Source: Flavobacterium gelatinilyticum
GTDB lineage: Bacteria > Bacteroidota > Bacteroidia > Flavobacteriales > Flavobacteriaceae
Length of the DNA: 64,000 nt
Reading direction: 5' to 3'
Assembly (NCBI RefSeq): GCF_027111295.1
Contig: NZ_CP114287.1
Location: 3,224,001-3,288,000, forward strand
The notes under the pieces were generated by a model, which worked only from the letters and a program-made list of their open reading frames with translations, did no database searches and was not told the origin of the DNA. Made by a program: the position numbers and the translations under genes. Shown here one piece after another: positions 39,745 through 60,803 of the stretch (position 1 is its first letter; each line of letters begins with the position of its first letter).

Positions 39745-39779
39745 GTTTCAGGTTTCATGTTTTTTTTAGTTTCAAGTTA
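39745..39779. repeat. gtttcaggtttca repeat after sufC
   Basis: gtttcaggtttca followed by agtttcaagttac. The same words return, mainly as the reverse complement (cctgaaac, gaaacttgaaacctgaaact), after the four-helix-bundle gene, and again at 46432. Confidence 0.6.
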
Positions 39780-39819
39780 CAAACTATATTTGTAATTTTT
39801 AACTTACATAAAATTTGAA

Positions 39820-40215
39820 ATGGCAACAATTACGAGGTTTGAAGATTTAGAAATCTGGAAAGAGGCAAGACGATTAGCAAAAGAAATACATTTTATTTCG
39901 GTTGAAACAGAGTTAAGATCCGATCTCAGATTTAAAAATCAAATAAAAAGTTCTTCGGGTTCAGTGATGGATAACATTGCAGAAGGTTTTGAAAGAGATG
40001 GAAATTTAGAATTTCGACAATTTTTATCAATTGCAAAAGGTTCAGCCGGAGAAACAAGATCTCAATTATATCGAGTTTTTGATTTTGAATATATTTCAGA
40101 AGAAAAATTCGAAGCTTTAAAAAAGGATTATGAAAATTTAAGTGGTAAAATAAAAAACTTTATCACTTATCTAAATAAAAAAGATTTCAAAGGAAATAAG
40201 TTTCAAAAAACCTGA
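39820..40215 (+). CDS. Four helix bundle protein (23S rRNA intervening-sequence protein family)
   Basis: 131 residues, mostly amphipathic helices. The sequence [17 protein letters not shown] and [20 protein letters not shown], then [16 protein letters not shown], is the hallmark of the S23/IVP-type four-helix bundle family, known from intervening sequences in 23S rRNA genes and scattered in Bacteroidetes genomes. Function unknown, RNA binding suspected. Here it interrupts the suf operon between sufC and sufD and is framed by gtttcagg-type repeats, which suggests that it arrived with them. Confidence 0.92.
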
Positions 40216-40292
40216 AACATTAACCTGAAACAAAAAAGGATCCAAAGGAAATCAAGTTCCAACAAGCAAACGTGAAACTTGAAACCTGAAAC
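40211..40292. repeat. cctgaaac repeats after the four-helix-bundle gene
   Basis: cctgaaac occurs twice at 40211-40231, then gaaacttgaaacctgaaact at 40273-40292. These are inverted relative to the gtttcagg copy before the gene, so the gene lies between inverted repeats of the same family. Confidence 0.6.
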
Positions 40293-40315
40293 TCCGAAGG
40301 AAACAAACAACAGAA

Positions 40316-41632
40316 ATGGATTTAAAAGAAAAATTAGTATCGTCTTTTATGGCTTTTGAAGAGCGTGTTGATGTGCATTCAGATTTGCATGACATCCGTA
40401 CAAATGCTATAAAAAACTTCGAAAATAAAGGTTTCCCAACCAAAAAGGAAGAAGCTTGGAAATACACATCGCTAAATGCCATCTTAAAAAATGATTTTAC
40501 GGTTTTTCCAAAACAGGAAAATGCAATCGAATTCAATCAGGTAAAAAAATACTTTTTACACGAAATAGACACTTATAAATTAGTTTTTATTGATGGTGTT
40601 TTCAGTTCGCATTTGTCTTCTACAACGCACGACGGAATCGATGTTTGTTTGATGTCATCGGCATTGACCAAACCAAAATATAAAATGATTATTGATACAT
40701 ACTTTAATCAAATTGCAAGTAAAGATGACAGCTTGACTTCATTGAATACTGCTTTTGCAATGGAAGGTGCTTTTATCAATATTCCAAAGAAAAAAGTAGC
40801 TGATAAACCAATTGAGGTAATGTTTTTTTCAACCGGTTCAGAATCTGCTTTAATGGTTCAGCCGAGAAATTTGATTATTGTGGGCGAAAATTCACATGTT
40901 CAAATTATCGAGCGTCACCAAAGTTTGAATGAAAATCCGGTTTTAACAAATTCTGTTACAGAGATTTTCGCTCAAAAACGTGCCATTGTTGATTATTACA
41001 AAATTCAAAACGACAACAGCGAAGCGAATTTAGTTGACAATACTTACGTTTCTCAACAACAAGAAAGCCACGCTTCTGTTCATACTTTCTCATTTGGAGG
41101 AAATTTAACTCGTAACAACTTAAACTTTTACCATTTCGGAGAAAGATTGACAAGTACGTTGAACGGAATTTCTATCTTGAATGACAAACAACACGTTGAT
41201 CATTATACTTTGGTAAACCATGCGCAACCAAACTGCGAAAGTTTCCAAGATTATAAAGGAATTTTCTCTGATCGTTCGACAGGCGTTTTCAACGGAAAAG
41301 TTCTGGTTGAGAAAGAAGCCCAGAAAACAAATGCTTTCCAAAAAAGCAACAACATTTTATTGAGTGACAAAGCTACAATCAACGCAAAACCACAATTGGA
41401 AATTTTTGCTGATGACGTAAAATGTTCTCACGGATGTACGGTTGGACAGCTTGATGAAACAGCAATGTTCTACATGCAATCTCGTGGAATCCCGAAAAAA
41501 GAAGCTAAAGCTTTATTGATGTACGCATTCTCAAATGCCGTTATCGAAAGTATTAAAATACCAGAATTAAAACAAAGAATTACTAAAATCATTGCCATGA
41601 AATTAGGCGTTAATTTAGGATTTGATTTGTAA
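40316..41632 (+). CDS. sufD: Fe-S cluster scaffold protein SufD
   Basis: 438 residues. The SufD signature is clear: KKEEAWKYTSL at the N-terminus, HVDHYTLVNHAQPNCESFQDYKG (His-rich core), KCSHGCTVGQLDETAMFYMQSRGI and AFSNAVIESIK at the C-terminus. It pairs with SufB. It starts 24 bases after the repeat that follows the four-helix-bundle gene. Confidence 0.96.
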   Translation: MDLKEKLVSSFMAFEERVDVHSDLHDIRTNAIKNFENKGFPTKKEEAWKYTSLNAILKNDFTVFPKQENAIEFNQVKKYFLHEIDTYKLVFIDGVFSSHLSSTTHDGIDVCLMSSALTKPKYKMIIDTYFNQIASKDDSLTSLNTAFAMEGAFINIPKKKVADKPIEVMFFSTGSESALMVQPRNLIIVGENSHVQIIERHQSLNENPVLTNSVTEIFAQKRAIVDYYKIQNDNSEANLVDNTYVSQQQESHASVHTFSFGGNLTRNNLNFYHFGERLTSTLNGISILNDKQHVDHYTLVNHAQPNCESFQDYKGIFSDRSTGVFNGKVLVEKEAQKTNAFQKSNNILLSDKATINAKPQLEIFADDVKCSHGCTVGQLDETAMFYMQSRGIPKKEAKALLMYAFSNAVIESIKIPELKQRITKIIAMKLGVNLGFDL

Positions 41633-41642
41633 TTTTTCTTAA

Positions 41643-41713
41643 CCGCAAAGAGCGCAAAGGTTTACGCAAGGTTCGCAAAGTTTTTATTTAAGCTTTGCGA
41701 ACTTTGCGTTTTT
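41643..41713. repeat. cgcaaag repeat element after sufD
   Basis: The words cgcaaag and ctttgcg recur at least six times in about 70 bases and form a palindrome around tttttatttaagc. Related in base words to the element at 2501. Just after the sufD stop, so it may act as the operon's transcript end. Confidence 0.65.
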
Positions 41714-41724
41714 ACTTAATTCCT

Positions 41725-41800
41725 CCTGCGAGGTTTTCAAAACCTCGTAGGTATTTTATTTTCTATTTGACACCTACAAGGTTTTGAAAACCTTGCAGGA
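41725..41800. repeat. Pair of inverted palindromes, cctgcgaggttttcaaaacc type
   Basis: Two 28-30 base units, each nearly palindromic (gaggttttcaaaacctc and aaggttttgaaaacctt), lie inverted to one another around an AT spacer. Unit 2 read in reverse complement matches unit 1 with only a few changes. It lies between the sufD end and the inverted serine hydrolase gene. Confidence 0.7.
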
Positions 41801-41813
41801 GCTGAAATCTAAA

Positions 41814-43163
41814 TTACTTATTAACAGAAGCAATAACCTCTTTCAAAAATCCATTAAAATCAAATCCAGGTTCCTCTTCTCTTACTCCCATTCTCACAAT
41901 CACCATATCTTTTGATGGAATAATCGCTACCATCTGACCTTGGTAACCACTACAATAAAACATATCACGAGGAACATCCGGGAATTTTCCGCCTGCGTTT
42001 AACCAAAATTGTGCGCCATATTTCCCTTCAGAAGTATTGGTTGGCGTTGCCGTGTATTTTACCCAACTTTCGTCAAGGATTTGTTCGCCGTTCCAGTTTC
42101 CTTTATGAAGATATAATAATCCGAATTTTGACCAGTCGCGCGGTGTTGCCCATCCGTAAGATGAGCCAACGAAAGTTCCGCTCATATCTTGTTCTACAAT
42201 CATCGAGTTCATTCCGATTTTGTCGATTATGGCGCTGTACCAAAAATCAAGATATTCTTGTTGTGTTTTAAATTGTCTTCTTAAAATCAGCGACAATAAA
42301 TTGGTTGTTCCGGAAGAATAATTCCAATGTGTATTCGGTTTGAATTGTGCTGGTTTATCCAATTGTACTTTCCCCATATCTTCGGCCTGAAAAAGCATTT
42401 TTGTAGCATCGCAGATCGTGCTGTAATTCTCTTCCCATTCTAAACCGGAATTCATATGAAGCAAATCGTTTAGCGTAATATTTTTACGTTCGTCATTTTT
42501 CCATTCTGCAACCGGAGCAGGTTTGTAAATGTCAATTTTTCCTTGTTTTGCCAAAACGCCAAAAGCCGAACTTGTGATACTTTTTGTCATCGACCAACCC
42601 AGAATTTTACTGTCTTTATTGAATCCTGTATCGTATTTTTCAGCTACTAAATGATCTTTATACAAAACTACAACGGCGCGAGTTCTTTTAATTCTTCCTC
42701 CGGTTTTATCAAAAGCATTTTCTACTGCTTTTTTCAATTTTGAATAATCAACATTCGAAAATGCCGAATCTTTTGGTTCATTATTTCCGTATGGAAAAGG
42801 TAGATTATTTTCTAATTTGGTTCTTTTCGGAAGAAGATAGGGTTTTGAAACATCAAAATCATCATTAATCAAAGTTGCTCCTAATCCTTCGCGGTAAATG
42901 GCTTTTCTTTTTTTCAATCCATAAACCGAAGAAATTGCAAACTTTCCCGAATCATCAATTGAATTTTCAGCCAAATCAATCATATCGATATCATTGTCTG
43001 TTTTTTGAATTAAATCAAGCGGACGATTATCTATAAAATGTCCAGAAGCGACACTTTTGGCCGAGAAACCAGAAATCAAATCCAACTTCGGATAAGTTGT
43101 AAATCCGAAATATAAAAAAGCAAGAACCACTACAAGCAAAAGTACTTTGAGAAATTTTTTCAT
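41814..43163 (-). CDS. Serine hydrolase, beta-lactamase/esterase family
   Basis: 449 residues, with an N-terminal membrane/signal segment (FLKVLLLVVVLAFLYFGF). The SxxK motif is in GWSMTKSITSS, YSS in HWNYSSGTTNL, and GYQGQ near the C-terminus (YCSGYQGQMVAI). This pattern is like 6-aminohexanoate-dimer hydrolase/EstB-type enzymes. It is transcribed against the suf genes and separates sufD from sufS, so the suf cluster is split into two transcription units. Substrate unknown; no obvious relation to Fe-S assembly. Confidence 0.88.
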   Translation of the reverse strand: MKKFLKVLLLVVVLAFLYFGFTTYPKLDLISGFSAKSVASGHFIDNRPLDLIQKTDNDIDMIDLAENSIDDSGKFAISSVYGLKKRKAIYREGLGATLINDDFDVSKPYLLPKRTKLENNLPFPYGNNEPKDSAFSNVDYSKLKKAVENAFDKTGGRIKRTRAVVVLYKDHLVAEKYDTGFNKDSKILGWSMTKSITSSAFGVLAKQGKIDIYKPAPVAEWKNDERKNITLNDLLHMNSGLEWEENYSTICDATKMLFQAEDMGKVQLDKPAQFKPNTHWNYSSGTTNLLSLILRRQFKTQQEYLDFWYSAIIDKIGMNSMIVEQDMSGTFVGSSYGWATPRDWSKFGLLYLHKGNWNGEQILDESWVKYTATPTNTSEGKYGAQFWLNAGGKFPDVPRDMFYCSGYQGQMVAIIPSKDMVIVRMGVREEEPGFDFNGFLKEVIASVNK

Positions 43164-43349
43164 GATGATTTAAGTTATTTTACTGCAATATAAATAATTT
43201 ATGGTCACGAATTTAGAACTCAAAATATAATTCTGATTCGGATAATTCAGAAAACCGAATCGATTTTTACAAAATCAGCATTTCAGCTTTACACAATGGC
43301 ATCATAAAAGGAAATTATAGAATTGCTGTATAAACAAATTTAGTTTTAG

Positions 43350-43357
43350 TACTTTTG
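43350..43357 (+). promoter_or_regulatory. -7 element for the sufS unit
   Basis: TACTTTTG matches TAnnTTTG and ends 25 bases before the sufS ATG. This is consistent with the need for a second promoter after the inverted hydrolase gene. No clear TTG -33. Confidence 0.5.
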
Positions 43358-43382
43358 TAAATAGATTTTTTCTAAATAAGAC

Positions 43383-44597
43383 ATGCTAGATATTCAAAAA
43401 ATAAGAGCTGATTTCCCGATACTTTCTCAAACTGTAAACGGAAAGCCATTAGTATATTTCGACAACGGAGCTACTTCGCAAAAACCACAAGTTGTAATTG
43501 ATGCTGAAGTAAAATATTATCAAGAAATCAATGCCAACATTCACCGTGGCGTTCACACTTTAAGCCAGTTAGCGACTGATGCTTACGAGGTTGCTCGTGG
43601 AAAAGTAAAAGACCACATCAATGCAAAACATGCTCACGAAGTGCTTTTCACTTCAGGAACTACGCACGGAATTAACTTAGTTGCAAACGGATTCGCTTCG
43701 ATTTTAAAATCTGGAGATGAAGTCGTTGTTTCTTCTTTGGAACATCACAGTAACATTGTGCCTTGGCAGATGTTGTGCGAGAAAACAGGAGCGATTTTAA
43801 AAGTTATTCCGATTGATCAAAATGGAGAATTGATCATTGAAGAATTTGACAAATTGCTTTCAGATAAAACGAAAATTGTTACTGTAAATCATATTTCGAA
43901 CGCATTGGGAATTATTAACCCAATTAAATATATTATTGATAAAGCGCACGCTGTTGGCTCTGCTGTTTTAATTGACGGTGCGCAGGCTGTTCCGCATTTA
44001 AAACCAGACGTTCAGGAATTAGATTGCGATTTTTATGCTTTTTCTGGTCATAAAATGTGCGGTCCAACGGGAACTGGAATTCTTTATGGAAAAGAAGAAT
44101 GGCTGAACAAACTTCCTCCTTATCAAGGCGGGGGCGAGATGATTAAAGAAGTGACTTTCGAAAAAACAACTTATGCCGATCTTCCGCATAAATTTGAAGC
44201 CGGGACTCCAAATATCGCTGGCGGAATCGTATTAGGAACTGCAATTGATTATTTAAACGAAGTTGGTTTTGATAATATTCAAGCATACGAACACGAACTT
44301 TTAGAACACGCTACAAAACGTTTATCTGAAATTGAAGGTATTAGAATCTACGGAACTGGAAAAAATAAAGCTTCTGTAGTTTCGTTTAATATTGATGGAA
44401 TCCATCCGTATGATGTTGGTTCTATTATCGATAAGTTGGGAATTGCGGTTAGAACCGGACATCATTGTGCGCAGCCAATCATGAATTTCTTCTGTATTCC
44501 GGGAACGATTCGTGCTTCTTTTTCTTTCTATAATACTAAAGAAGAAATTGACCAAATGGTTGATGCTGTTAAGAAAGCTCAAACAATGCTAAGCTAA
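43383..44597 (+). CDS. sufS: Cysteine desulfurase SufS
   Basis: 404 residues. PLP-binding Lys in AFSGHKMCGPTGTG, catalytic Cys in RTGHHCAQPIM, N-terminal YFDNGATSQKPQVV. This is a group II cysteine desulfurase; it takes sulfur from cysteine and gives it to SufE. It is followed 11 bases later by a lipoprotein gene and then by sufE. Confidence 0.97.
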   Translation: MLDIQKIRADFPILSQTVNGKPLVYFDNGATSQKPQVVIDAEVKYYQEINANIHRGVHTLSQLATDAYEVARGKVKDHINAKHAHEVLFTSGTTHGINLVANGFASILKSGDEVVVSSLEHHSNIVPWQMLCEKTGAILKVIPIDQNGELIIEEFDKLLSDKTKIVTVNHISNALGIINPIKYIIDKAHAVGSAVLIDGAQAVPHLKPDVQELDCDFYAFSGHKMCGPTGTGILYGKEEWLNKLPPYQGGGEMIKEVTFEKTTYADLPHKFEAGTPNIAGGIVLGTAIDYLNEVGFDNIQAYEHELLEHATKRLSEIEGIRIYGTGKNKASVVSFNIDGIHPYDVGSIIDKLGIAVRTGHHCAQPIMNFFCIPGTIRASFSFYNTKEEIDQMVDAVKKAQTMLS

Positions 44598-44608
44598 AAT
44601 CTATTTTT

Positions 44609-45034
44609 ATGAGAATATTATCTTTATTGCTTTTAACAGTATTTATTACTGCTGGTTGCTGCAGTCAAAAAAATGTAGATATGAAATCAACTCAAATTGA
44701 ATATTCTGCACTTTCAAGGGGGTACTATAAAATGATAATCGTTCAAAATAAAACGGTTTCTGTTACTAAAGAACGTAACGCGCAAGCTGTTGAAAGCAAT
44801 ATCACTGATGCCAAATGGAATAAAATTGTTTCTGCATTTTCAAAAGTGAATTTGGAAAGTCTTTCTGATTTAAAAGCACCAACTGACAAACGCACTTATG
44901 ATGGGGCAGCAATAGGAAATTTAAAAATAGTAAAAGATGGAAAAACCTACGAAACTCCAGGTTTCGACAATGGTTTTCCTCCAAAAGAAATCGAGGAACT
45001 AGTAAATTTATTAGTTGATTTTTCTAAAGAATAA
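44609..45034 (+). CDS. Small lipoprotein of unknown function between sufS and sufE
   Basis: 141 residues, lipoprotein signal ending at FITAGC (Cys17) followed by C18. Mature part: EYSALSRGYYKMIIVQNKTV, TDKRTYDGAAIGNLKIVKDG, ETPGFDNGFPPKEIEELV, likely a small beta-rich domain. No characterised family recognised. It is tightly placed (11 bases after sufS, 2 bases before sufE), so it is co-expressed. An envelope lipoprotein inside a cytoplasmic Fe-S operon is curious. Confidence 0.85.
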   Translation: MRILSLLLLTVFITAGCCSQKNVDMKSTQIEYSALSRGYYKMIIVQNKTVSVTKERNAQAVESNITDAKWNKIVSAFSKVNLESLSDLKAPTDKRTYDGAAIGNLKIVKDGKTYETPGFDNGFPPKEIEELVNLLVDFSKE

Positions 45035-45036
45035 TT

Positions 45037-45462
45037 ATGACGATAAAAGAAATACAAGACGAAATAATAGACGAATTTTCAATGTTTGATGACTGGATGC
45101 AGCGCTATGAATACATCATCGAACTTGGAAAAAGTCTTCCTTTAATTAAAGAGGAATACAAAACCGACGAGAATTTAATCAAAGGCTGTCAGTCTAAAGT
45201 TTGGCTGCAAGGTGAACAACAAGATGATAAAATTGTTTTTACGGCAGACAGCGATGCCATTTTGACAAAAGGAATAATCGCTATTTTAATTCGTGCATTC
45301 TCTAATCAAAAAGCAAAAGATATTCTCGAAGCAGATACCGATTTTATTGACGAAATCGGATTAAAAGAACATTTATCTGCAACACGCGCCAACGGTTTGG
45401 TTTCGATGGTAAAAAATATCAAAATGTATGCTTTGGCTTTTGATGCAAAAAACAAAAATTAA
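45037..45462 (+). CDS. sufE: Sulfur acceptor protein SufE
   Basis: 141 residues, normal size. The sulfur-accepting Cys is C51 in LIKGCQSKVW. SufE receives persulfide from SufS and hands it to SufB. It starts 2 bases after the lipoprotein gene. Confidence 0.96.
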   Translation: MTIKEIQDEIIDEFSMFDDWMQRYEYIIELGKSLPLIKEEYKTDENLIKGCQSKVWLQGEQQDDKIVFTADSDAILTKGIIAILIRAFSNQKAKDILEADTDFIDEIGLKEHLSATRANGLVSMVKNIKMYALAFDAKNKN

Positions 45463-45470
45463 AGAAAATT

Positions 45471-45538
45471 AAACCATATAAGGCATATAAGAAAGTTTAA
45501 GTTTTGCTTTAAATGAACTTATATGACTTATATCGTTA
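45471..45538. repeat. Palindromic repeat copy A, left of the GxxExxY gene
   Basis: Begins aaaccatata and ends tatatcgtta; inside lies ttaagttttgctttaaatga, which is identical in copy B. The unit is itself an imperfect palindrome: accatataaggcatataag on the left pairs with cttatatgacttatat on the right. It lies in the sufE-GxxExxY gap. Confidence 0.75.
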
Positions 45539-45597
45539 GAAAAAATTAAAGTAGGTTTTATCTTTCTTTTTTATTTGTATCATTGCTAAAAAAAGTA

Positions 45598-46008
45598 ATG
45601 ATTACAAAGAAATATTTGACTGATTTAATTTATCAGGTAAACGGAGCGGCGATTGAAGTTCATAGAAAAATTGGAGCAGGACTTTTAGAAAGCATTTATC
45701 ATCAGTGTATGATTAAAGAACTTTCTTTAAGAGGAATTAATTTTCAATCAGAATTAAAAATTCCTATTGAATATAAAGGTTTAAAATTGGAATCAGATTT
45801 AAGATGTGATCTATTTATTGAAAATTGCTTAGTTCTAGAATTAAAAGCAGTTGATCAAATTATTCCAATTCATGTCGCCAAACTAATGTCTTATATGAAA
45901 CTTCTAGAATCTCCAATCGGACTAATGATAAATTTTAATGTAACAAATATTTATCACGAAGGTCAAAAAACATATGTCAACGATTTATATCGCTGGTTAG
46001 AAGAATAA
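45598..46008 (+). CDS. GxxExxY protein
   Basis: 136 residues from the ATG at 45598 (a TTG at 45583 would add five residues). The family name motif is present as GAGLLESIY, with the conserved N-terminus VNGAAIEVHRKIG and the C-terminal ELKAVDQIIPIHVAKLMSYMKLL, which resembles a PD-(D/E)xK nuclease core with E in LELKA. GxxExxY proteins are found scattered and multi-copy in bacterial genomes, without known function. This copy stands between two repeats (45471 and 46022) in the suf cluster, so it is probably an insertion. Confidence 0.9.
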   Translation: MITKKYLTDLIYQVNGAAIEVHRKIGAGLLESIYHQCMIKELSLRGINFQSELKIPIEYKGLKLESDLRCDLFIENCLVLELKAVDQIIPIHVAKLMSYMKLLESPIGLMINFNVTNIYHEGQKTYVNDLYRWLEE

Positions 46009-46021
46009 AAATAAATTTATT

Positions 46022-46088
46022 AAACCATATAGTAATATTAAGAAAATTTAAGTTTTGCTTTAAATGAACTTACATGACTTATATGGTA
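46022..46088. repeat. Palindromic repeat copy B, right of the GxxExxY gene
   Basis: Same orientation as copy A, with over 25 identical bases in the core and matching ends (aaaccatata, then cttacatgacttatatgg). The frame of the next gene stays open through part of the repeat. Confidence 0.75.
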
Positions 46089-46102
46089 AAAAAAACAAAA
46101 AA

Positions 46103-46426
46103 ATGGAACAAGAAATAGACACAAACGAATTAGGAGAATCAATCGTAAGAGTTTTAAAAGGCATTTACGATCCTGAGATTCCTGTAGATATTTATGAATT
46201 AGGATTAATCTACGACGTAATGGTAAACACAGATTACGAAGTAAAAATCTTAATGACACTTACTTCTCCAAACTGTCCGGTTGCCGAAAGTTTACCAAGA
46301 GAAGTTGAAGAGAAAGTAAAAACAATCGAAAACATCAAAGATGTTGATGTTGAAATTACTTTTGATCCGCCTTGGAGCAAAGATTTAATGAGCGAAGAAG
46401 CGAAATTAGAATTAGGAATGCTTTAA
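46103..46426 (+). CDS. DUF59/MIP18-family Fe-S assembly protein (SufT-like)
   Basis: 107 residues from the ATG at 46103. The DUF59 signature GIYDPEIPVDIYELGLIYDV and the conserved Cys in LTSPNCPVAESLP are visible, then FDPPWSKDLMSEEAKLELG. Proteins of this family (SufT, PaaD-like) help maturation of Fe-S proteins. An ATG at 46064 inside repeat B is in frame and would add 13 residues (MNLHDLYGKKNKK), but I prefer the family-consistent start. Confidence 0.92.
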   Translation: MEQEIDTNELGESIVRVLKGIYDPEIPVDIYELGLIYDVMVNTDYEVKILMTLTSPNCPVAESLPREVEEKVKTIENIKDVDVEITFDPPWSKDLMSEEAKLELGML

Positions 46427-46431
46427 TATTT

Positions 46432-46493
46432 GTTTCAGGTTTAAAGTTTCAAGTTAAAAGTTAAGCAACTTGAAACCTGAAACTTTAAACTTG
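46432..46493. repeat. gtttcagg/cctgaaac inverted repeat
   Basis: gtttcaggtttaaagtttca on the left faces aacttgaaacctgaaact on the right around a short AT spacer. Same family as the elements around the four-helix-bundle gene at 39745 and 40211, 6 kb away, showing that this family is repeated within the locus. Confidence 0.7.
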
Positions 46494-46508
46494 CAACCAA
46501 CTTTTCAC

Positions 46509-47018
46509 ATGGAAGAAATCATCAATAAAGTTGCCAATAGTGCCTTAGAAGTTTTTGATTTGGAGGATTATTATCCAAAAGGAATACGTATTCAGATTGA
46601 CATTTCGCAATGGCTTTTGGAAGGATTTTTACTAAAAGAAAAAGACTTTAGAGAACATCTTAAAAATCACGATTGGTCGCAATATCAGAATCAGTATGTG
46701 GCTGTACATTGCAGTACAGATGCCATTATACCTGCGTGGGCACTAATCTTGGTCAGCGTTCATTTAGCTCCTTTTGCTAAAAAAATAGTTAACGGAACAA
46801 TTGAAGATTTAGACGCAAGTCTTTATGAAGAAATTTTAAGCAAAATCGATTATTCTGTTTACAAAAGTAAACCGGTAATTGTAAAAGGCTGTTCAAGAAA
46901 ACCAGTTCCTATGCGTGCTTACATTTTGGCAACAAACTATTTACAGCCGTTTGCCCGAAGCATCATGTATGGCGAAGCCTGTTCTGCGGTTCCTTTATAT
47001 AAAGAATCTAAGAAATAA
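46509..47018 (+). CDS. DUF2480 family protein
   Basis: 169 residues from the ATG at 46509; a TTG-initiated frame from 46470 would start inside the repeat. Conserved in Bacteroidetes suf neighbourhoods. Motifs FDLEDYYPKGIRIQIDISQW, DWSQYQNQYVAVHCSTDAII and KPVIVKGCSRKPVPMRAY. The Cys residues in the last two motifs could bind metal or clusters, but this is a guess. Confidence 0.88.
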   Translation: MEEIINKVANSALEVFDLEDYYPKGIRIQIDISQWLLEGFLLKEKDFREHLKNHDWSQYQNQYVAVHCSTDAIIPAWALILVSVHLAPFAKKIVNGTIEDLDASLYEEILSKIDYSVYKSKPVIVKGCSRKPVPMRAYILATNYLQPFARSIMYGEACSAVPLYKESKK

Positions 47019-47065
47019 CCTGCACTTAGAAGCAATTTATCCCTTACTTTTCCGTTGGTTTTTAG

Positions 47066-47073
47066 TATATTTG
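47066..47073 (+). promoter_or_regulatory. -7 element upstream of the DUF3078 gene
   Basis: TATATTTG fits the -7 consensus, 23 bases before the ATG at 47097. No TTG at 19-21 bases. Confidence 0.4.
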
Positions 47074-47096
47074 AAAATACACTTAAATTAAAAACC

Positions 47097-48029: not shown

Positions 48030-48035
48030 ATAAAA

Positions 48036-48065
48036 AAACGGCTTTTGAATTATCAAAAGCCGTTT
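48036..48065. terminator. Bidirectional terminator between DUF3078 gene and hflX
   Basis: aaacggcttttga and tcaaaagccgttt form a perfect 13-bp stem over a 4-base loop, with A/T runs on both sides. Confidence 0.85.
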
Positions 48066-54621: not shown

Positions 54622-54736
54622 TCAATAATTCCAATTTATTTTTAAAATAGTTTAGGATAATAATCCTTATTCAAAAGATAAAATTGGTTTTTGGAAAATT
54701 GCTTTGTCCTATTGATGATACAAACGACGTAAAGTT

Positions 54737-54768
54737 CAAATATATATAAAATAATTAATCCGAAACAA
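54737..54768 (-). promoter_or_regulatory. Promoter of the TonB receptor operon
   Basis: On the minus strand: -33 TTG (complement at 54766-54768), 21-base spacer, -7 TATATTTG (54737-54744). It lies about 115 bases before the ATG at 54621 and overlaps the palindrome at 54753. Confidence 0.6.
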
Positions 54769-54796
54769 ATTCTTACAAATTTATTTCGGATTAATT
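54753..54796. promoter_or_regulatory. Palindrome overlapping the TonB receptor promoter
   Basis: aattaatccgaaa and tttcggattaatt are a perfect 13-bp inverted repeat with an 18-base gap. It covers the -33 element of the receptor promoter, where a repressor could bind. It also lies 49 bases after the MFS stop and may act as the terminator of that gene. Confidence 0.5.
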
Positions 54797-54844
54797 TGAA
54801 TTTTTATTAAAAATATTGGATAAAATCGATTTTAAACGATCCCG

Positions 54845-56065
54845 TTAAGCGGTTGTTCTAATTTTGGAAACCATAAAGGCAATCAGAACGCCAAAAATCC
54901 CGATAAAAGCAAAAGAAAACTGAAGTCCAAAGTTTTGTGCAATGTGTCCAATTACAGGAGGTCCCATTAAAAAGCCCAAGAAACTAACACTTGAAACTAT
55001 CGTTAAAGCTTCTCCCGGCGGCACTGTCGGATTTTTTCCAGCCATACTGTAAACTGTTGGAACAATCGTGGCAACACCCAAACCTACAGCCATAAAAGCA
55101 ATCGTGCACGGAATGATATACGGAAGAAAAACTGCGGTAAACAATCCGGCAGAAATCATAACTCCGCTGATCTGCATAACACGCTCACGTCCAAATTTAT
55201 TGATTAATCCGTCTCCAAGGAATCTTCCTCCGGCCATCATAATCATAAAAGAGGTATATCCTAAAACCACCAAAGGTCCCGGTGCCTGAACAATATCTTT
55301 AAAGTAAACACCGCTCCAGTCAAACATTACGCCCTCACTGGCCATACTGCAAAAACCAATTACACCCAGCCAAAGCAAAGCACTGTCCGGTTTGGTAAAT
55401 AGTTTCTTCTTTTCGGCATTTTTATGTTTGATTTTTTCTTTGGCTTTAACTAAAAACTGAAAATTGAAAGCCACCATTAATAAAACGATCCCTCCTACAA
55501 TCAAAAAGTGATGCAAAGGCGATAAATCTAATGCCAGCATTCCTAAACCTACTAAAGCCCCGGTAAATCCGGCAAAACTCCACATACCGTGAAAAGATGA
55601 CATGATTGTTTTTTTGAATAAAACTTCGGTATAAACTCCTTGCGTATTTACGGCGATATTGGCTAAGTTTCCAAATAATCCAAACAAAAACAAACCTAAT
55701 GACAATTGCAGACCTGTGGTTGCCAGTCCTAAATTAGCAAGACATAACACATACATTATTAAAGAGAAAATTAAAATGCGGTGGCTTCCAAATTTGGTTA
55801 CCATTTTACCCGAAAACGGCATTACGATCAATTGTCCCATTGGCAGGGCAAAAAGTATCGAGCCCAAATCGCCTTCGGTTAAATGAAGGGCAGTTTTGAT
55901 ATCCGGGATTCGGCTTGCCCAGGTGGCAAAACTCAGTCCCATTCCGAAATAAAACATTCCCACAGCAAAACGAATTCGTTTTAAATACGACGCTTTGGCT
56001 TCCCTAAAAACCTTTTTGATTTTTCCTTTTGTCTGAAAAAGCTGTAATGGATTGAAATTTATCAA
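54845..56065 (-). CDS. Major facilitator superfamily transporter, YbjJ-like
   Basis: 406 residues with 12 predicted membrane segments. Motifs FATWASRIPDIKTALHLTEGDLG and PFSGKMVTKFGSHRILIFSLIM match the YbjJ group of MFS transporters of unknown substrate. The best start is a TTG at 56065: there is no ATG before Met37, where the first membrane segment has already begun, so the N-terminus is uncertain. Upstream on the same strand comes a Gfo/Idh/MocA gene with its own terminator. Confidence 0.88.
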   Translation of the reverse strand: MINFNPLQLFQTKGKIKKVFREAKASYLKRIRFAVGMFYFGMGLSFATWASRIPDIKTALHLTEGDLGSILFALPMGQLIVMPFSGKMVTKFGSHRILIFSLIMYVLCLANLGLATTGLQLSLGLFLFGLFGNLANIAVNTQGVYTEVLFKKTIMSSFHGMWSFAGFTGALVGLGMLALDLSPLHHFLIVGGIVLLMVAFNFQFLVKAKEKIKHKNAEKKKLFTKPDSALLWLGVIGFCSMASEGVMFDWSGVYFKDIVQAPGPLVVLGYTSFMIMMAGGRFLGDGLINKFGRERVMQISGVMISAGLFTAVFLPYIIPCTIAFMAVGLGVATIVPTVYSMAGKNPTVPPGEALTIVSSVSFLGFLMGPPVIGHIAQNFGLQFSFAFIGIFGVLIAFMVSKIRTTA

Positions 56066-56227
56066 AATTGATGCATTTATGAATTATGTTATAAAATTAC
56101 AAAAAAGCAGGATATGTACTTAAAAGTACAAATTGTTCGCTTATTTACAACGTTATTGTTTATAAATTACCAGGTTATCCTGTAAGCAAACACGGACTCG
56201 ACTTTCCTGATCTGAATGCATAAAAAA

Positions 56228-56247
56228 AGACGCACTGATGTGCGTCT
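56228..56247 (-). terminator. Terminator of the Gfo/Idh/MocA gene
   Basis: agacgcac and gtgcgtct form a perfect GC-rich 8-bp stem with a 4-base loop, followed on the minus strand by seven T. It lies 25 bases past the stop at 56272. Confidence 0.8.
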
Positions 56248-56271
56248 CTACAATAATTTTATCTTTTTATT

Positions 56272-57312
56272 TTATAAATCGATCACTTTTCGCTGCGTAG
56301 TACTGGCAATAGCAGCTTCGATTACCTGCATTACTTTTACCCCGTCTTCGGCAGTAACAGGTTCTGTTACATCGCTTGTTATAGAGTTAAAAACGCCGTC
56401 AAAAAACGAGAAATAATTTCCTTTTAAGGTTTCGATTTTTTCACGAACCGGTTTTCCGTCAATTTCTGTATGAAGAATTCCCTGAAGGTTTTCCGGTTCT
56501 GTTCCCCACGATTCCAGATTCGGTTTTTCACCCTCTTTTAATTTGTCTTCCTGAACATCCCCTCTCGGTTTTAAGAAAGAACCTTTTTTACCATGAATTG
56601 TATAGGCAGGATTGGCTTCCCGAACAAAAAATCCGGCTTTTAAACGTACCCTGAAATTTTCGTAAATCAACAATAAATCGATCCAATCATCTACCAGCGA
56701 ATTTTCTCTTGTGATTCTAATGTCTCCAAAAACAGATTTTGGAGAACCAAACAAACAAATCGCCTGATCTATTAAATGCGGCCCTAAATCTTTCAGGATT
56801 CCGGCTCCGTCATTTGCGGTTTCTTTATGAGCTTTCGGACTCAGCAGCGGGTTATATCTGTCAAAATGAAATTCAGCTTCTACCAAATCTCCCAAAACAC
56901 CGTCTTCAATTACTTTTTGAATCGTTTTAAAATCGCTGTCCCATCTTCTGTTCTGAAAAACGGCCAGTTTTACCCCCTTTTCTTTAGCAATTTCGTTTAG
57001 TTCTTTGGCTTCTGCTGCGGTTGTGGTAAAAGCTTTTTCGACAACGGCATGTTTTCCTGCCAAAAGTACTTTCTTCGCATATTCGTAATGTGTACCGACA
57101 GGGGTATTGACTATTACGAGATCAACATCGTCTGCCAATACATCTTCGATTGAAGCGTAACTTTTGACATCCGGATAGTCCAGCTGAATTAGTTTTTTAG
57201 TTCTTTCCCACGATCCCAGTAATTCAAATCCGGGATGAATGTCCAAAAATGGCGCGTGAAAAACCTTTCCCGACATTCCGTATGATAATAGTGCTGTTTT
57301 TATTTGCTGCAT
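56272..57312 (-). CDS. Gfo/Idh/MocA family oxidoreductase
   Basis: 346 residues. NAD(P)-binding Rossmann fold N-terminal part (LLSYGMSGKVFHAPFL, YASIEDVLADDVDLVIVNTP) and the EKAFTTT motif with the conserved EKP-like Lys, then DRYNPLLSPKAHKE and DLGPHLIDQAICLFG, the C-terminal substrate-binding part. These enzymes oxidise or reduce sugars or derivatives. Substrate not clear. Confidence 0.93.
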   Translation of the reverse strand: MQQIKTALLSYGMSGKVFHAPFLDIHPGFELLGSWERTKKLIQLDYPDVKSYASIEDVLADDVDLVIVNTPVGTHYEYAKKVLLAGKHAVVEKAFTTTAAEAKELNEIAKEKGVKLAVFQNRRWDSDFKTIQKVIEDGVLGDLVEAEFHFDRYNPLLSPKAHKETANDGAGILKDLGPHLIDQAICLFGSPKSVFGDIRITRENSLVDDWIDLLLIYENFRVRLKAGFFVREANPAYTIHGKKGSFLKPRGDVQEDKLKEGEKPNLESWGTEPENLQGILHTEIDGKPVREKIETLKGNYFSFFDGVFNSITSDVTEPVTAEDGVKVMQVIEAAIASTTQRKVIDL

Positions 57313-57328
57313 TTTGGTTGTTTTTTCC

Positions 57329-57377
57329 GCCGCAAATTCACGAATTTATTGATTGTAAAAATTCATGAATTTGCGGC
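57329..57377. repeat. Inverted repeat of the cgcaaattcacgaattt family
   Basis: gccgcaaattcacgaattt and aaattcatgaatttgcggc face each other over an 11-base spacer (18 of 19 complementary). Same family as 16008 and 20062. It lies after the OYE gene, so it can also act as a terminator, with a T run on the minus strand. Confidence 0.7.
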
Positions 57378-57386
57378 TAATAAAAT

Positions 57387-58457
57387 TTATAACTTAGCTC
57401 TTTCGTACTGTTTTGGCCACTGAATATCGTCGTTTAATTCTTTGGCGAAATCCAGAGGCAGGTTCGGGTTTCTTAATGATTCTCTGGCGAATAAAATTAA
57501 ATCTCCCTGATTTTTCTTTAGGATTTCCTCGGCTTGTTCTACTTCGGTTATTAAACCTACGGCCCCTGTTGCAATATTAGCTTCTTTTTTTACTTTTTCT
57601 GCAAAAGGAACCTGATATCCCGGTCCAAGTGTGATTTTTTGATGCGATACCAATCCGCCTGACGAAACATCAATTAAATCTACTCCTTTTTCTTTTAATA
57701 TTTTCGAAAGCTGTACAGATTCTTCTGGATTCCAGCCGCCTTCTGCCCAGTCCGTAGCCGAAATCCTAACGAATAACGGTAAATCCGAAGGCCATTCGGT
57801 CTGTACGGCTTCTACAATTTCTAATGTAAAACGAATTCTATTTTCGAAACTGCCGCCGTATTCATCGGTTCTCACGTTTGTTAAAGGCGATAAAAACTGA
57901 TGCAGTAAATAACCATGTGCTGCGTGGACTTCCAAAACCTGAAAACCGGCTTCTACCACTCTTTTTGTGGCAGATTTAAAATCAGAAATTACTTTTTGGA
58001 TTCCGTTTTTATCCAAAGCTTCCGGCAGAAAAGGTTCGTTATCGTGATACGGAATCGCACTTGGCGCAACAGTCTGCCATCCGCCCTGAGCGATATCTAA
58101 CTTTTTATTTCCCAGCCACGGAGCCGAAACACTTGCTTTTCGTCCGGCATGTGCCAGCTGGATTCCCGGAATTGCATTTTGTGAAACAATAAAAGCGTTG
58201 ATTTGTTTTAGTTTTTCGATATGTTCGTCTTTCCAGATTCCTAAATCCGAAGGTGAAATTCTGGCTTCGGGAGAAACTGCCGTCGCTTCCTGAATAATCA
58301 GTCCGGCTCCTCCAGAGGCACGGCTTCCTAAATGAACCAGATGCCAGTCGTTTGCAAATCCGTCCTCGGCAGAATACTGGCACATAGGCGAAATAACGAT
58401 TCTATTTTTTAAAGTGATGTTTTTTAAGGATAAAGGAGAAAATAATTGTGAAGCCAT
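57387..58457 (-). CDS. Old yellow enzyme-family NADH:flavin oxidoreductase, NamA/YqjM type
   Basis: 356 residues. Motifs LKNITLKNRIVISPMCQYSA, HLGSRASGGAGLI, QLAHAGRK, HAAHGYLLHQFLSPLTNVRTDEYGGS, and RESLRNPNLP define the FMN-binding TIM barrel of the YqjM group. The Cys in SPMCQYS is the redox-tuning Cys of this group. It reduces electrophilic alkenes or quinones with NAD(P)H. Single gene unit. Confidence 0.95.
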   Translation of the reverse strand: MASQLFSPLSLKNITLKNRIVISPMCQYSAEDGFANDWHLVHLGSRASGGAGLIIQEATAVSPEARISPSDLGIWKDEHIEKLKQINAFIVSQNAIPGIQLAHAGRKASVSAPWLGNKKLDIAQGGWQTVAPSAIPYHDNEPFLPEALDKNGIQKVISDFKSATKRVVEAGFQVLEVHAAHGYLLHQFLSPLTNVRTDEYGGSFENRIRFTLEIVEAVQTEWPSDLPLFVRISATDWAEGGWNPEESVQLSKILKEKGVDLIDVSSGGLVSHQKITLGPGYQVPFAEKVKKEANIATGAVGLITEVEQAEEILKKNQGDLILFARESLRNPNLPLDFAKELNDDIQWPKQYERAKL

Positions 58458-58620
58458 AATTGTAACTTTTAATGATTTTAGGATACTTATTGAAACTGTA
58501 CCCTTTTAAAAAGTAAAGTTACAGCATCTGAATAAAAGGAGAAATTGAAATGTTTATTAATTAACAAACATTTAAAACCTTAAGTATTATCTTGCGGTCT
58601 TAAATTAAATAAGAAAACGT

Positions 58621-58628
58621 TACTTTTG
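58621..58628 (+). promoter_or_regulatory. -7 element for rseP
   Basis: TACTTTTG matches TAnnTTTG, 28 bases before the rseP ATG. A TTG lies 26 bases upstream, too far to be a standard pair. Confidence 0.4.
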
Positions 58629-58656
58629 TGCGTTAAATACGAACTAAAAATACAAA

Positions 58657-60000
58657 ATGGATATAGTTATCAAACTCTCTCAATTTCTATTGAGTTTATC
58701 TTTACTTATTATTCTTCACGAATTAGGACACTTTATTCCTGCCAAATTATTTAAAACAAGAGTCGAAAAATTTTACCTGTTTTTTGATGTTAAATATGCC
58801 CTGCTAAAAAAGAAAATCGGCGAAACTGAATATGGAATTGGATGGTTACCGCTTGGAGGTTATGTAAAAATCTCAGGTATGATCGACGAAAGTATGGACA
58901 AAGAGCAAATGGCAGAGCCGCCAAAGCCTTGGGAGTTTCGTACTAAACCGGCTTGGCAGCGTTTAATTATTATGCTTGGCGGTGTTACCGTAAACTTTAT
59001 CCTTGCTTTTATTATATATATAGGAATGGCGTTTGCTTACGGAGATACGTATGTAGCCAATTCTGATTTGAAAGATGGTGTATTTATAGAAAATCCTGCA
59101 ATGCTTAAAGCAGGTTTTAGAACCGGAGACAAAATTATATCTATCGACGATAAAAAAGTTGAGAATTTCGATAATGACATGAACATGAACGTGATCATGG
59201 CGAAACATGTTTTAATTGAAAGAGATGGAAAACAGCAGACTATTACCATGCCTGGTGATTTTGTAGATCAGTTATCGAAATACGAAAAAGGTTTATTAAT
59301 TGGAATAAGAATGCCTTTTGTTGTGGGTAAAGTAGCCGAAGAATCTGAAAATACTTCTTTAAAACCAAAAGATTTGATTGTAAACCTTAATGGTCAAAAA
59401 ATTAAATATTTTGATGAAGCAAAAGTTATCTTAGACGCTAACAAAGGAAAAACAATTTCTGCTGTAGTGCTTCGTGATTTAAAAGAAACTCCTCTAACAG
59501 TAAAGGTTTCTAAGGAAGGAAAACTGGGTATTGCAGTTGGCGGTCTTGGTATTGAATCCTTAGAAAAACTAGGTTACTATAAAGTAAGTACAAAAGAATA
59601 TAGTTTCTTTGAATCTATTCCGGTTGGAATTGAAAAAGGAAAAGATCAATTGGTAGGTTACGGAAAACAATTGAAAATGATTTTTAACCCGGAAACCAAA
59701 GCTTACAAACAAGTAGGTGGTTTTGCTGCGATTTACAACATTTTTCCAAGTTCTTGGAGCTGGGAAACATTCTGGTCAATCACTGCTTTATTGTCAATTA
59801 TGCTTGGTGTTATGAATTTATTGCCAATTCCGGCTCTTGACGGCGGACATGTTATGTTTTTATTGTATGAAATGATCAGCGGTAAAAAACCAAGCGATAA
59901 ATTCCTTGAAAATGCCCAAATGGTTGGTTTCGTATTACTTATAACACTGCTTTTGTTTGCTAACGGAAACGATATTTATAAGGCAATCGTAGGCAGGTAA
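58657..60000 (+). CDS. rseP: RIP zinc metalloprotease RseP
   Basis: 447 residues, site-2 protease family. The zinc motif H21-E-L-G-H25 is in the first membrane segment, and NLLPIPALDGGHVMF provides the LDG motif in the third. PDZ-like parts lie between (about 115-330, NPAMLKAGFRTGDKIISID). It cleaves anti-sigma factors in the membrane; in this genus it may act on FecR-like anti-sigma factors such as the one at 4994, but this is only an idea. A tRNA pair lies directly downstream. Confidence 0.95.
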   Translation: MDIVIKLSQFLLSLSLLIILHELGHFIPAKLFKTRVEKFYLFFDVKYALLKKKIGETEYGIGWLPLGGYVKISGMIDESMDKEQMAEPPKPWEFRTKPAWQRLIIMLGGVTVNFILAFIIYIGMAFAYGDTYVANSDLKDGVFIENPAMLKAGFRTGDKIISIDDKKVENFDNDMNMNVIMAKHVLIERDGKQQTITMPGDFVDQLSKYEKGLLIGIRMPFVVGKVAEESENTSLKPKDLIVNLNGQKIKYFDEAKVILDANKGKTISAVVLRDLKETPLTVKVSKEGKLGIAVGGLGIESLEKLGYYKVSTKEYSFFESIPVGIEKGKDQLVGYGKQLKMIFNPETKAYKQVGGFAAIYNIFPSSWSWETFWSITALLSIMLGVMNLLPIPALDGGHVMFLLYEMISGKKPSDKFLENAQMVGFVLLITLLLFANGNDIYKAIVGR

Positions 60001-60029
60001 AAAAAATTAAAAAAAGAGTGAAAATGTTT

Positions 60030-60058
60030 TTGAGAAACTAAAAATAGTTTTATATTTG
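60030..60058 (+). promoter_or_regulatory. Promoter of the tRNA-Asn genes
   Basis: TTG at 60030-60032, 18-base spacer, TATATTTG at 60051-60058. It ends 24 bases before the first tRNA. Good match to the Bacteroidetes consensus. Confidence 0.65.
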
Positions 60059-60082
60059 CACTCGCTAAAAAGAGCAACAACT

Positions 60083-60156
60083 TCCTCCTTAGCTCAGTTG
60101 GTTAGAGCATCTGACTGTTAATCAGAGGGTCCTTGGTTCGAGCCCAAGAGGGGGAG
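60083..60156 (+). tRNA. tRNA-Asn (GTT), first copy
   Basis: 74 nucleotides. Acceptor TCCTCCT pairs with AGGGGGA, D-stem GCTC/GAGC, anticodon stem TCTGA/TCAGA around CTGTTAA (anticodon GTT), T-stem CTTGG/CCAAG with TTCGAGC loop, discriminator G. Identical to the second copy. Confidence 0.95.
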
Positions 60157-60194
60157 CAACTTTTTTTAGCAAACATATTTACCTTTAAGGTGAT

Positions 60195-60268
60195 TCCTCC
60201 TTAGCTCAGTTGGTTAGAGCATCTGACTGTTAATCAGAGGGTCCTTGGTTCGAGCCCAAGAGGGGGAG
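60195..60268 (+). tRNA. tRNA-Asn (GTT), second copy
   Basis: Same 74 nucleotides as the first copy, 38 bases downstream. Both are read from the promoter at 60030 and end at the terminator at 60276. Confidence 0.95.
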
Positions 60269-60275
60269 CTTAATA

Positions 60276-60310
60276 AATACCACTTACAGATGTAAGTGGT
60301 ATTTTTTTTT
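60276..60310 (+). terminator. Terminator of the tRNA-Asn pair
   Basis: aataccacttaca and tgtaagtggtatt are a perfect 13-bp stem with a 2-base loop, followed by a T tract. Confidence 0.88.
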
Positions 60311-60317
60311 GATACGA

Positions 60318-60427
60318 ATCTGACTGCTAATCAGAGCCCCGAAAGCTTTCGGGGTTGATCCTACCAATAGCTATTAGGACAAGAGGAGTTTACTAAATAC
60401 CACTTATAATTATTCTTAGTGTTTTTT
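60318..60427 (+). pseudogene. tRNA-Asn-like 3' fragment with decayed terminator, left of the GIY-YIG gene
   Basis: The start (atctgactgctaatcagag) equals the anticodon arm of tRNA-Asn with one change in the loop. Instead of the T arm it carries two hairpins: ccccgaaagctttcgggg and a weaker one around caatagctattagg, then aagaggag like the tRNA 3' end. After it comes a decayed copy of the terminator (aataccactt, then agtgttttttt). Without acceptor and D arm it cannot be a working tRNA. Confidence 0.7.
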
Positions 60428-60450
60428 TGCCCTTTATTTATTCTATCATC

Positions 60451-60732
60451 ATGCATTTTGTTTACATTCTCTATTCCTCCAAATTGAATCGATTTTATAT
60501 TGGATTTACATCTAATTTTGATACTCGAATGGAGTTTCATAAAAATGCAGAATCACATAAATTCACAGCAAATGCAGAAGATTGGGAATTATTTCTCAAA
60601 ATAGAATGCGGAAGTAAATCACAAGGTCTTAATATTGAAAAACATATTAAGAAAATGAAAAGCAAAATCTATATTGAAAATTTAATTAAGTATCCAGATA
60701 TTATTCTTAGACTTAAAGAGAAATATAAATAA
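60451..60732 (+). CDS. GIY-YIG nuclease family protein (UPF0213-like)
   Basis: 93 residues from the ATG at 60451; a TTG at 60427 would add 8. GIY-YIG core visible as FVYILYSS and FYIGFTSN, with Arg in DTRMEFH, and downstream Glu in SQGLNIEKHIKKMKS. Small single-domain members are frequent in Bacteroidetes and are not well understood. This copy stands between two tRNA-Asn-like fragments, which suggests a tRNA-linked insertion or duplication. Nuclease activity not shown. Confidence 0.88.
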   Translation: MHFVYILYSSKLNRFYIGFTSNFDTRMEFHKNAESHKFTANAEDWELFLKIECGSKSQGLNIEKHIKKMKSKIYIENLIKYPDIILRLKEKYK

Positions 60733-60736
60733 AACC

Positions 60737-60803
60737 GTTAATCAGAGCCCCGAAAGCTTTCGGGGTTGGTTCTCCCGATAGCCATCGGGACAAGAGGGGG
60801 AGC
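60737..60803 (+). pseudogene. tRNA-Asn-like 3' fragment, right of the GIY-YIG gene
   Basis: gttaatcagag, then the same ccccgaaagctttcgggg hairpin as in the left fragment, a second palindrome tcccgatagccatcggga, and a 3' end caagagggggagctt which is identical to the 3' end of the true tRNA-Asn genes. Direct repeat of the fragment at 60318. Confidence 0.75.

Follow-up and report, generated by a model that had tools for sequence, protein, structure and literature searches.

What are three small and unrelated genes doing, each between short noncoding repeats, in one stretch of the Flavobacterium gelatinilyticum chromosome? The window analysed here is 64 kb long (NZ_CP114287.1, positions 3,224,001 to 3,288,000) and belongs to a single-contig genome of 5.83 Mb, labelled G000 below; other genomes and individual loci carry G and L numbers. 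A first-pass annotation, made from the letters alone, had pointed out three small open reading frames (ORFs) and proposed that they belong to one general class of repeat-framed mini-cassettes. The genes are where it placed them, and Pfam and TIGR models assign them to the families it named. All three are on the plus strand. A gene for a four-helix-bundle protein, hereafter IVP, lies at 39820..40215 (131 aa; PF05635, TIGR02436), between sufC and sufD. A GxxExxY gene lies at 45598..46008 (136 aa; PF13366, TIGR04256, PD-(D/E)XK superfamily), between sufE and a SUF_assoc/sufT gene. A GIY-YIG gene lies at 60451..60732 (93 aa; PF01541), 3' of an rseP-like gene and of two tRNA-Asn genes that are identical to each other. 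The names sufB, sufC, sufD, sufE and rseP were read from translations. Each gene is indeed framed by repeats of its own kind, but the framing does not follow one logic in all three, the tRNA-type repeats being direct and not inverted. Our conclusion is that the IVP and GxxExxY genes are, on balance, the coding parts of two families of short hairpin elements.

Flanking repeats of family members and control genes

In G000, we found 15 IVP matches (13 above the family cut-off), 5 GxxExxY matches and 10 GIY-YIG matches, three of the latter in long open frames. Their flanks were compared with those of 294 control ORFs drawn from 20 stretches of 20 kb. All of these controls are from the window's own genome, while the majority of the IVP loci discussed below are from others. 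An inverted-flank test (alignment score of at least 30, 200-base flanks) was passed by 14 of the 15 IVP copies and 4 of the 5 GxxExxY copies, as compared with 9 of the 294 control ORFs; among the 138 control ORFs with gaps of at least 40 on both sides, 8 passed. The fifth GxxExxY copy, which is the one in the window, had an inverted score of 29 and a direct score of 107. Reading of the flanks showed an inverted repeat around nearly all G000 copies of the two families, differing from locus to locus. The score of 30, like the lag-7 identity of 0.6 in 35 nt used below, was set after the first loci had been viewed. The enrichment of flanking repeats that had been predicted for family members over control genes was thus borne out for IVP and GxxExxY, by the counts in G000 and by samples in other genomes. 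The opposite outcome, repeats as common beside ordinary genes, was not what we observed, though gene-less hairpins of the same kinds do occur.

IVP arms as arrays of 7-nt units

The repeat at the IVP gene had been described as a "gtttcagg" type. It is present, and its correct description is an array with a 7-nt period. The left arm (39740..39785, plus strand; GTTTCAG GTTTCAT ... GTTTCAA GTTACAA) and the inverted right arm (40206..40293, minus strand; AACCTGAAAC ... GTGAAACTTGAAACCTGAAAC) both have a lag-7 window of 0.68. Inverted pairs join 39745-39762 to 40275-40292 (94%) and 39740-39754 to 40222-40236 (100%). In the predicted RNA fold of the unit, the two arms pair with each other and the gene occupies the loop (z -4.2).

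The same period was found in IVP flanks at large. Identity at lags 7, 14 and 21 was.387/.359/.339 in the IVP flanks of G000, as compared with.309/.305/.314 in control intergenic DNA. At 69 further Bacteroidota IVP loci, the values were.365/.343/.329 vs about.28; this set is made of 29 loci (about one best match per genome) and 40 of the next 46 matches listed, and because it takes the top matches, weak members of the family are under-sampled. At 80 named IVP loci, the best 80 of 588 candidates found with one peptide pattern and all of subfamily A (see below), they were.382/.358/.351 vs about.27. These named loci span many phyla, including cyanobacteria, proteobacteria, planctomycetes, chloroflexi, fibrobacteria, acidobacteria, clostridia and one archaeal Methanophagales metagenome-assembled genome. 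Start codons were set by rule.

A 35-nt window with an identity of at least 0.6 was found at lag 7 in 194 of 328 IVP flanks, at lag 8 in 34 and at lags 4-6 and 9-12 in 3-10; two loci were entered twice (L092/L163 and L138/L151) and are double-counted here and in the arm-match and core tests below. This heptad test was passed by about 1% of shuffled IVP flanks and by 3-4% of windows lying more than 300 nt away in the same loci, which are mostly coding and served as controls for IVP loci of other genomes. Removal of duplicates and of proteins at least 80% identical dropped 21 of 233 loci, and another was lost because its flank was too short. This left 211 non-redundant loci, free of the double entries. 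Heptads were found on both flanks in 106 of them, as compared with 1 of the 294 G000 control ORFs and none of 32 GxxExxY loci. On at least one flank, the figures were 159 of 211, 37 of 294 and 3 of 32. The inverted score reached at least 30 in 124 of the 211. Framing is specific to the family and, for IVP, extends across phyla.

Heptad core and IVP subfamilies

Aligned in phase, the heptad windows gave AGNNNNY (A.67, G.88), a consensus shared by the left arm and the complement of the right arm. The positions outside the core are largely private to the locus. Arms of one locus scored a median of 33.5 against each other and 8.0 against arms of other loci, and the arm's own partner ranked within the best 2% for 41 of the 56 IVP loci having arrays on both sides. 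Between loci, arm similarity dropped to background once protein identity fell below about 60%.

The core goes with the protein subfamily. Subfamily A in Bacteroidota has mainly an RG core (G.88, A only.50). Subfamily B, recognized by its RSGTSIGAN motif, has AAT(T/G)NNR (A.85, A.79, T.83); its 69 further loci are 29 plus 40 of the next 45 matches listed, short or repeated ones being passed over. We tested the assignment in Bacteroidota only, with correction for composition and with whole loci held out. The core put 152 of 183 held-out windows in the right subfamily (A 64/79, B 88/104), with a Fisher p of 9e-20 that overstates the weight of the result because windows share ancestry, the real weight being that of a few clades. 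RG was constant in 56 of 79 A windows vs 25 of 104 B windows, and A[AG]T in 15 of 79 vs 67 of 104. Two cores for two related IVP proteins in the same genomes match what one would expect from recognition by the protein.

GxxExxY elements

The GxxExxY gene is flanked by a left palindromic repeat (45468..45544; AAACCATATAAGGCATATAAG ... CTTATATGACTTATAT) and by a right copy in direct order (46019..46095). A 57-nt repeat at 45488 and 46039 is 91% identical in direct order, and the left copy is itself palindromic (79%). The "atataag" repeat of the first-pass annotation is thus present at the gene, with a correction as to its kind. GxxExxY arms often have RCRNAG units (CGCAAAG, CACAGAG, CACGAAG, etc.), most often spaced by 8-10 nt, and the unit in the window (CATATAAG) seems to be a variant of this class.

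We assembled 32 GxxExxY loci, 27 from other Bacteroidota and the 5 of G000, with the truncated L232 and L250 excluded. The inverted score was at least 30 in 18 of them with 250-base flanks and in 17 with 200-base flanks. Spaced RCRNAG pairs were found upstream on the top strand in 14 of 32 loci and downstream on the bottom strand in 11 of 32. For comparison, such pairs occurred on the opposite strands in 1/32 and 4/32 loci, in 2/448 far windows, and at IVP loci in 2/164 and 6/164. A 7-nt period was ruled out for these arms (lag-7 identity.304 in G000 and.271 in the 32 loci).

Presence and absence at syntenic sites

Related genomes differed in carrying these genes at syntenic sites, as the idea of mobile cassettes had led one to look for, and this held for both IVP and GxxExxY. 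The sufC-sufD site was sampled in 30 of the 59 genomes with a match, and sufC was in reach in 29, including the window's. Repeats with an IVP gene were present in 7, repeats alone in 16 and a gap of 1-3 nt in 6. The 16 gene-less repeats are 62-84 nt long and mostly made of other words; one of the seven sites with IVP (L066) and one of the sixteen without (L073) fall slightly under the heptad threshold. At the sufE-sufT site, readable in 10 of 11 relatives, the GxxExxY gene was found in 2, a remnant in 1 and none in 7.

We then considered the other G000 sites in three sister species. At 12 IVP sites, the IVP gene was present in 18 of 36 comparisons, the right anchor being weak at L007 (three species) and at L009 (G015). 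At four GxxExxY sites, the gene was present in 2 of 11 comparisons, the L017 site having been left out for G008 owing to a weak match. Some empty sites held nothing, for example, the L008 site in G008 and the L011 site in G006. At the L002, L010, L012 and L016 sites, there was a hairpin without a gene, either of the same class or of a different one. In place of the gene, the L005 site in G008 had an unlike stretch of 793 nt, and in place of the unit, the L003 site in G015 had a different palindrome. Palindromes of the TGTCATTTCGACGAAGGAGAAATCACAC kind replace the gene unit at this L003 site in G015 (L381) and at the L017 site in G006 and G015 (L372, L392); at the L017 site in G015, the palindrome lies inside heptad arms. 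We know of no partner gene for it.

Gene-less hairpins and palindromes

The window also holds a gene-less heptad hairpin of the GTTTCAG type (46429..46500; predicted fold, z -5.0) and, by eye, a gene-less hairpin of the RCRNAG kind (41639..41712; TTAACCGCAAAGAGCGCAAAGG ... CTTTGCGAACTTTGCG). In 400 kb of G000, a strict scan for gene-less heptad hairpins returned 3; the shuffled sequence gave none. The GTTTCAG word had 7 further copies in 464 kb, as compared with 0-2 for shuffled words, and the L012 word had 7 copies vs 0-3. Most of the other 13 words were not clearly above shuffled ones, some of the 21-mers used being poor heptad picks. For most words tested, the copies did not have one repeat word in common genome-wide. 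Rfam, at the gathering threshold, gave no known RNA family for the hairpins in the window, where it returned two tRNAs only.

A gene-less palindrome pair (CCTGCGAGGTTTTCAAAACCTCGTAGG) at 41722..41801, seen by eye, resembles the pair that encloses a Y1 transposase gene in another part of the genome. Y1 transposase genes of G000 sit, by eye, between palindromes of their own (L419-L421). The clearest case is L421 (G000:C1:3534073-3534369), whose gene lies between copies of CCTGCAAGGTTTTCAAAACCTTGTAGG. Since the L421 kind of palindrome pair occurs without a gene in the window, G000 seems to own a set like that of repetitive extragenic palindromes (REPs) and REP-associated tyrosine transposases (RAYTs) too. 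Pfam and NCBIfam found no Y1 HUH transposase domain (PF01797) in the three window genes. A PF03358 flavodoxin-fold FMN reductase gene (38486-38980) lies between sufB and sufC.

The GIY-YIG gene and tRNA genes

A direct-repeat test (score of at least 40) was passed by 7 of 7 small GIY-YIG copies of G000 vs 14 of the 294 controls, 8 of the 14 coming from one tandem ORF array. However, 4 of the 7 copies form one tandem array, itself a source of direct repeats, and 5 of the 7 passed the inverted test too. The array behind the eight controls (L040 1380-3999; G000:C1:2711380-2713999) is made of 97-codon ORFs, mostly in 291-base steps.

In the window, two intact tRNA-Asn genes (60083..60157 and 60195..60269, plus strand) are followed by a terminator-like hairpin (60272-60307). 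Decayed tRNA-Asn pieces with inserted palindromes, also on the plus strand, lie 5' of the GIY-YIG gene (60312..60386) and 3' of it (60723..60803), the latter followed by a terminator-like hairpin (60806-60840). The two pieces (60312-60386 and 60723-60797) are 81% identical. Palindromes in decayed tRNA copies (CCCCGAAAGCTTTCGGGG, CCCGATAGCCATCGGG and others) were seen in the window at 60337-60354 and 60748-60782, and at L022, L023 and L026.

An intact tRNA gene lies within about 1.3 kb upstream of all seven small copies: Met for the four in tandem, then Val, Asp and Asn. In alignments, the 3' piece covers positions 5-76 of the tRNA (Val), 10-74 (Asp), 11-75 (first Met) and 32-75 (Asn). In these four aligned cases, the 3' stretch is a decayed tRNA copy with short palindromes in its arms; the other tandem copies were judged by reading. 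The four tandem copies (G000:C1:4388173-4389482; L021, L022, L024, L025) all lie behind one tRNA-Met and are separated by fragments of tRNA 3' ends and by terminators, as repeated entry into a single tRNA would leave them. The tRNA of the rseP-tRNA-Asn site was in reach in 14 genomes, two of them with too little sequence behind it. A GIY-YIG gene or remnant was found in 3 of the other 12 (the window's own, G004, whose tRNA piece was read by eye, and G018) and was absent in 9. Among these nine is G008, where a tRNA remnant bears a palindrome and no gene is present.

One class for all three genes was therefore ruled out, the GIY-YIG framing being direct, tRNA-derived and tied to tRNA genes. The framing is direct and lies at a conserved RNA gene, and we treat the GIY-YIG gene as homing-like. 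We consider it fairly probable that it is a cassette entering tRNA genes, a reading that concerns this gene alone and is compatible with those considered below for the other two. The incoming cassette would bring tRNA sequence and restore the tRNA, the old tRNA end being left decayed behind the gene, and repeated entry would yield tandem arrays. The intact tRNA upstream of every small copy, the decayed piece behind the gene in the Val, Asp, first Met and Asn alignments and the three-to-nine split at the rseP-tRNA-Asn site speak for it. On the other side, the tRNA copies are partial and decayed only, the inserted palindromes are not accounted for, and more than half of the copies belong to one array. 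A group I intron around the gene was looked for with Rfam at the gathering threshold, which gave tRNA only in the window. Two features of a GIY-YIG homing cassette, the domain and presence/absence at one conserved site, are found here. GIY-YIG homing near tRNA genes is a trait of the SegB type of phage T4. The common feature is a GIY-YIG gene tied to tRNA genes; the difference is that the gene is chromosomal here and lies beside duplicated decayed tRNA pieces.

Discussion

For the IVP and GxxExxY genes, the explanation that we favor is an element made of arm, gene and inverted arm, of roughly 450-600 bp, lying between genes and often inside an operon. The arms would be a putative cis element read by the protein or by its RNA-protein complex. 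The IVP arm would be a run of 7-nt units with a largely fixed core that changes with the subfamily (RG or AAT) and other positions private to the locus; in the GxxExxY arm, RCRNAG units would often follow one another at 8-10 nt. Intergenic sites would gain and lose elements as a whole. Hairpins without a gene would be what is left of elements or would be derived from them as non-autonomous forms, in the relation that REPs have to RAYT genes, and the intervening sequences (IVSs) of 23S rRNA would be the same element sitting in an rRNA gene. We infer binding of the arms by the protein and, from the presence/absence differences, movement of the units.

A number of observations weigh against these elements. 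Words differ between copies, unlike simple transposition with conserved ends, and at four of the gene-less sufC-sufD repeats (L053, L057, L060 and L065) the left and right words differ. No within-genome IVP pair exceeds 75% protein identity among the 233 loci compared, G000 being the sole genome with all its IVP copies included, so that recent within-genome copying is not supported, and no close paralogs left by such copying were seen among these loci. Neither Pfam nor NCBIfam assigned a catalytic domain to IVP. Heptads are below threshold in 52 of the 211 IVP loci, and 27 of the 211 have neither heptad nor inverted flanks. Inverted scores of at least 30 are less frequent beyond G000, with 29 of the 69 Bacteroidota loci and 47 of the 80 named loci (best 80 of 588). 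The single-window heptad test was also passed by 27 of 194 G000 control intergenic regions. By eye, the majority of the 27 are rich in A/T and look like chance, and a few further gene-less hairpins are among them. Few protein clades stand behind the link of core to subfamily, and windows are not independent events. As for GxxExxY, the RNA of the window unit does not fold with the outer copies paired, and just 8 of the 32 loci have the RCRNAG pair on both sides.

The privacy of the words is what one would expect if the hairpin came first, that is, if tandem-repeat hairpins arose intergenically by replication slippage and template switching and genes then inserted into their harmless loops. Most words tested are locus-private, arms match within a locus though words differ between loci, and orthologous sites do have hairpins without a gene and with other words. 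However, a blind process leaves unexplained why IVP genes sit in 7-nt arrays and GxxExxY genes do not, why the core changes with the IVP subfamily and why the same 7-nt period recurs in distant phyla, and we regard this origin as unlikely. Still less likely, in our judgement, is an immobile RNA device, a transcript hairpin kept in operons as a processing or attenuation element (RNase III site, or autoregulation by the bound protein), with species differences due to losses. It would fit the position of elements between operon genes (sufC-sufD, sufE-sufT), the predicted pairing of the arms in the window IVP element (z -4.2 as above) and the cutting of rRNA IVSs by RNase III (PMC4990558; statements on cited papers refer here and below to the parts of their text available). 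Yet the same site in sister species holds unrelated hairpin classes or nothing, the sufC-sufD gap is just 1-3 nt in 6 of 29 genomes, and of the four genomes compared at L016 and L018, and the three at L017, the window's is the sole one to have GxxExxY.

The IVP structures 2gsc and 2rld in PDB have five chains each. Avd, a protein of diversity-generating retroelements, is a five-fold ring, and TRAP holds (G/U)AG repeats. A bolder inference, by analogy with TRAP, is that a ring-shaped IVP pentamer might hold a few core dinucleotides, one per subunit. The numerical support is mixed. In-phase RG runs upstream have a mode of five, and those on the opposite strand peak at one and two. Downstream runs have their main peak at two and a second at five, and arrays are most often four units long (median 4.4 and 4.3), both of which speak against a five-unit array. 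Xanthomonas S23p has been described as a toroid of five (PMC4990558), and PF05635 proteins are like Avd in sequence and structure (PMC10053308).

Taken further, and only tentatively, hairpin elements of this sort may form a large class, as yet without a name, that propagates itself in bacteria and archaea alike. A ring-shaped four-helix-bundle protein would identify the element it belongs to by a periodic signal, a core di- or trinucleotide every 7 nt, with four to six units per arm fitting a five-subunit ring and spacer letters that can vary. The heptameric repeats known from between the genes of cyanobacteria, Xanthomonas and Beggiatoaceae would serve as arms, rRNA IVSs would be one landing place, and GxxExxY nucleases would form a parallel system with 8-10-nt units. 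Should IVP bind its own heptads, rRNA intervening sequences would be one case of a general element and not an rRNA curiosity, and some of the fast turnover of intergenic DNA in Bacteroidota would be explained.

Comparison with known systems

The first-pass annotation had likened the layout to REP-associated transposase systems, and in layout the likeness is apt, in a genome that has Y1 genes between their own palindromes as well. RAYT genes form a single ORF between two inverted REPs, with gene-less repeats elsewhere (PMC2817692). An ORF between inverted repeat copies is common to both systems, as the counts in G000 show (IVP 14/15, GxxExxY 4/5, controls 9/294). In contrast, the genes studied here are not Y1 transposases, and their arms are tandem arrays of short units, most words tested being private to the locus and not clearly multi-copy.

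The window IVP locus resembles the rRNA IVSs in that a gene of the S23p/IVP family sits in a stem-loop made by terminal inverted repeats. IVP ORFs have been described in 16S and 23S insertion sequences of bacteria of the candidate phyla radiation (PMC11270868), and S23p has no known function (PMC4990558). In Coxiella, heptamers GACAGAT immediately precede the S23p start codon (PMC4990558); put in register, they read AGATGAC. The elements described here differ in lying between protein genes. For the window and for the 80 named loci (best 80 of 588 candidates), they were ruled out as parts of rRNA genes, since Rfam detected no rRNA there. The available text of the IVS accounts compared contains neither a general heptad framing nor a subfamily-linked core.

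Heptameric repeats, for their part, have been described without a clear cause as the short tandemly repeated repetitive (STRR) sequences of cyanobacteria (Nostoc), GGGAATC of Xanthomonas and TAACTGA of Beggiatoaceae and some Bacteroidetes, with inverted heptamer pairs noted in Xanthomonas (PMC4692102, PMC4679880). TAACTGA, in register on the other strand, is AGTTATC. Beyond the IVS case of PMC4990558, our search, which left subscription papers and preprints outside, returned no literature linking PF05635/IVP genes to heptameric repeats. Tandem 7-nt units in intergenic DNA are common to these repeats and to the IVP arms, with their peaks at lags 7, 14 and 21. The difference is that the published accounts, in the parts available, name no gene-family partner, whereas here the arrays frame IVP genes. 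These data tie IVP/S23p proteins and heptameric repeats together across phyla.

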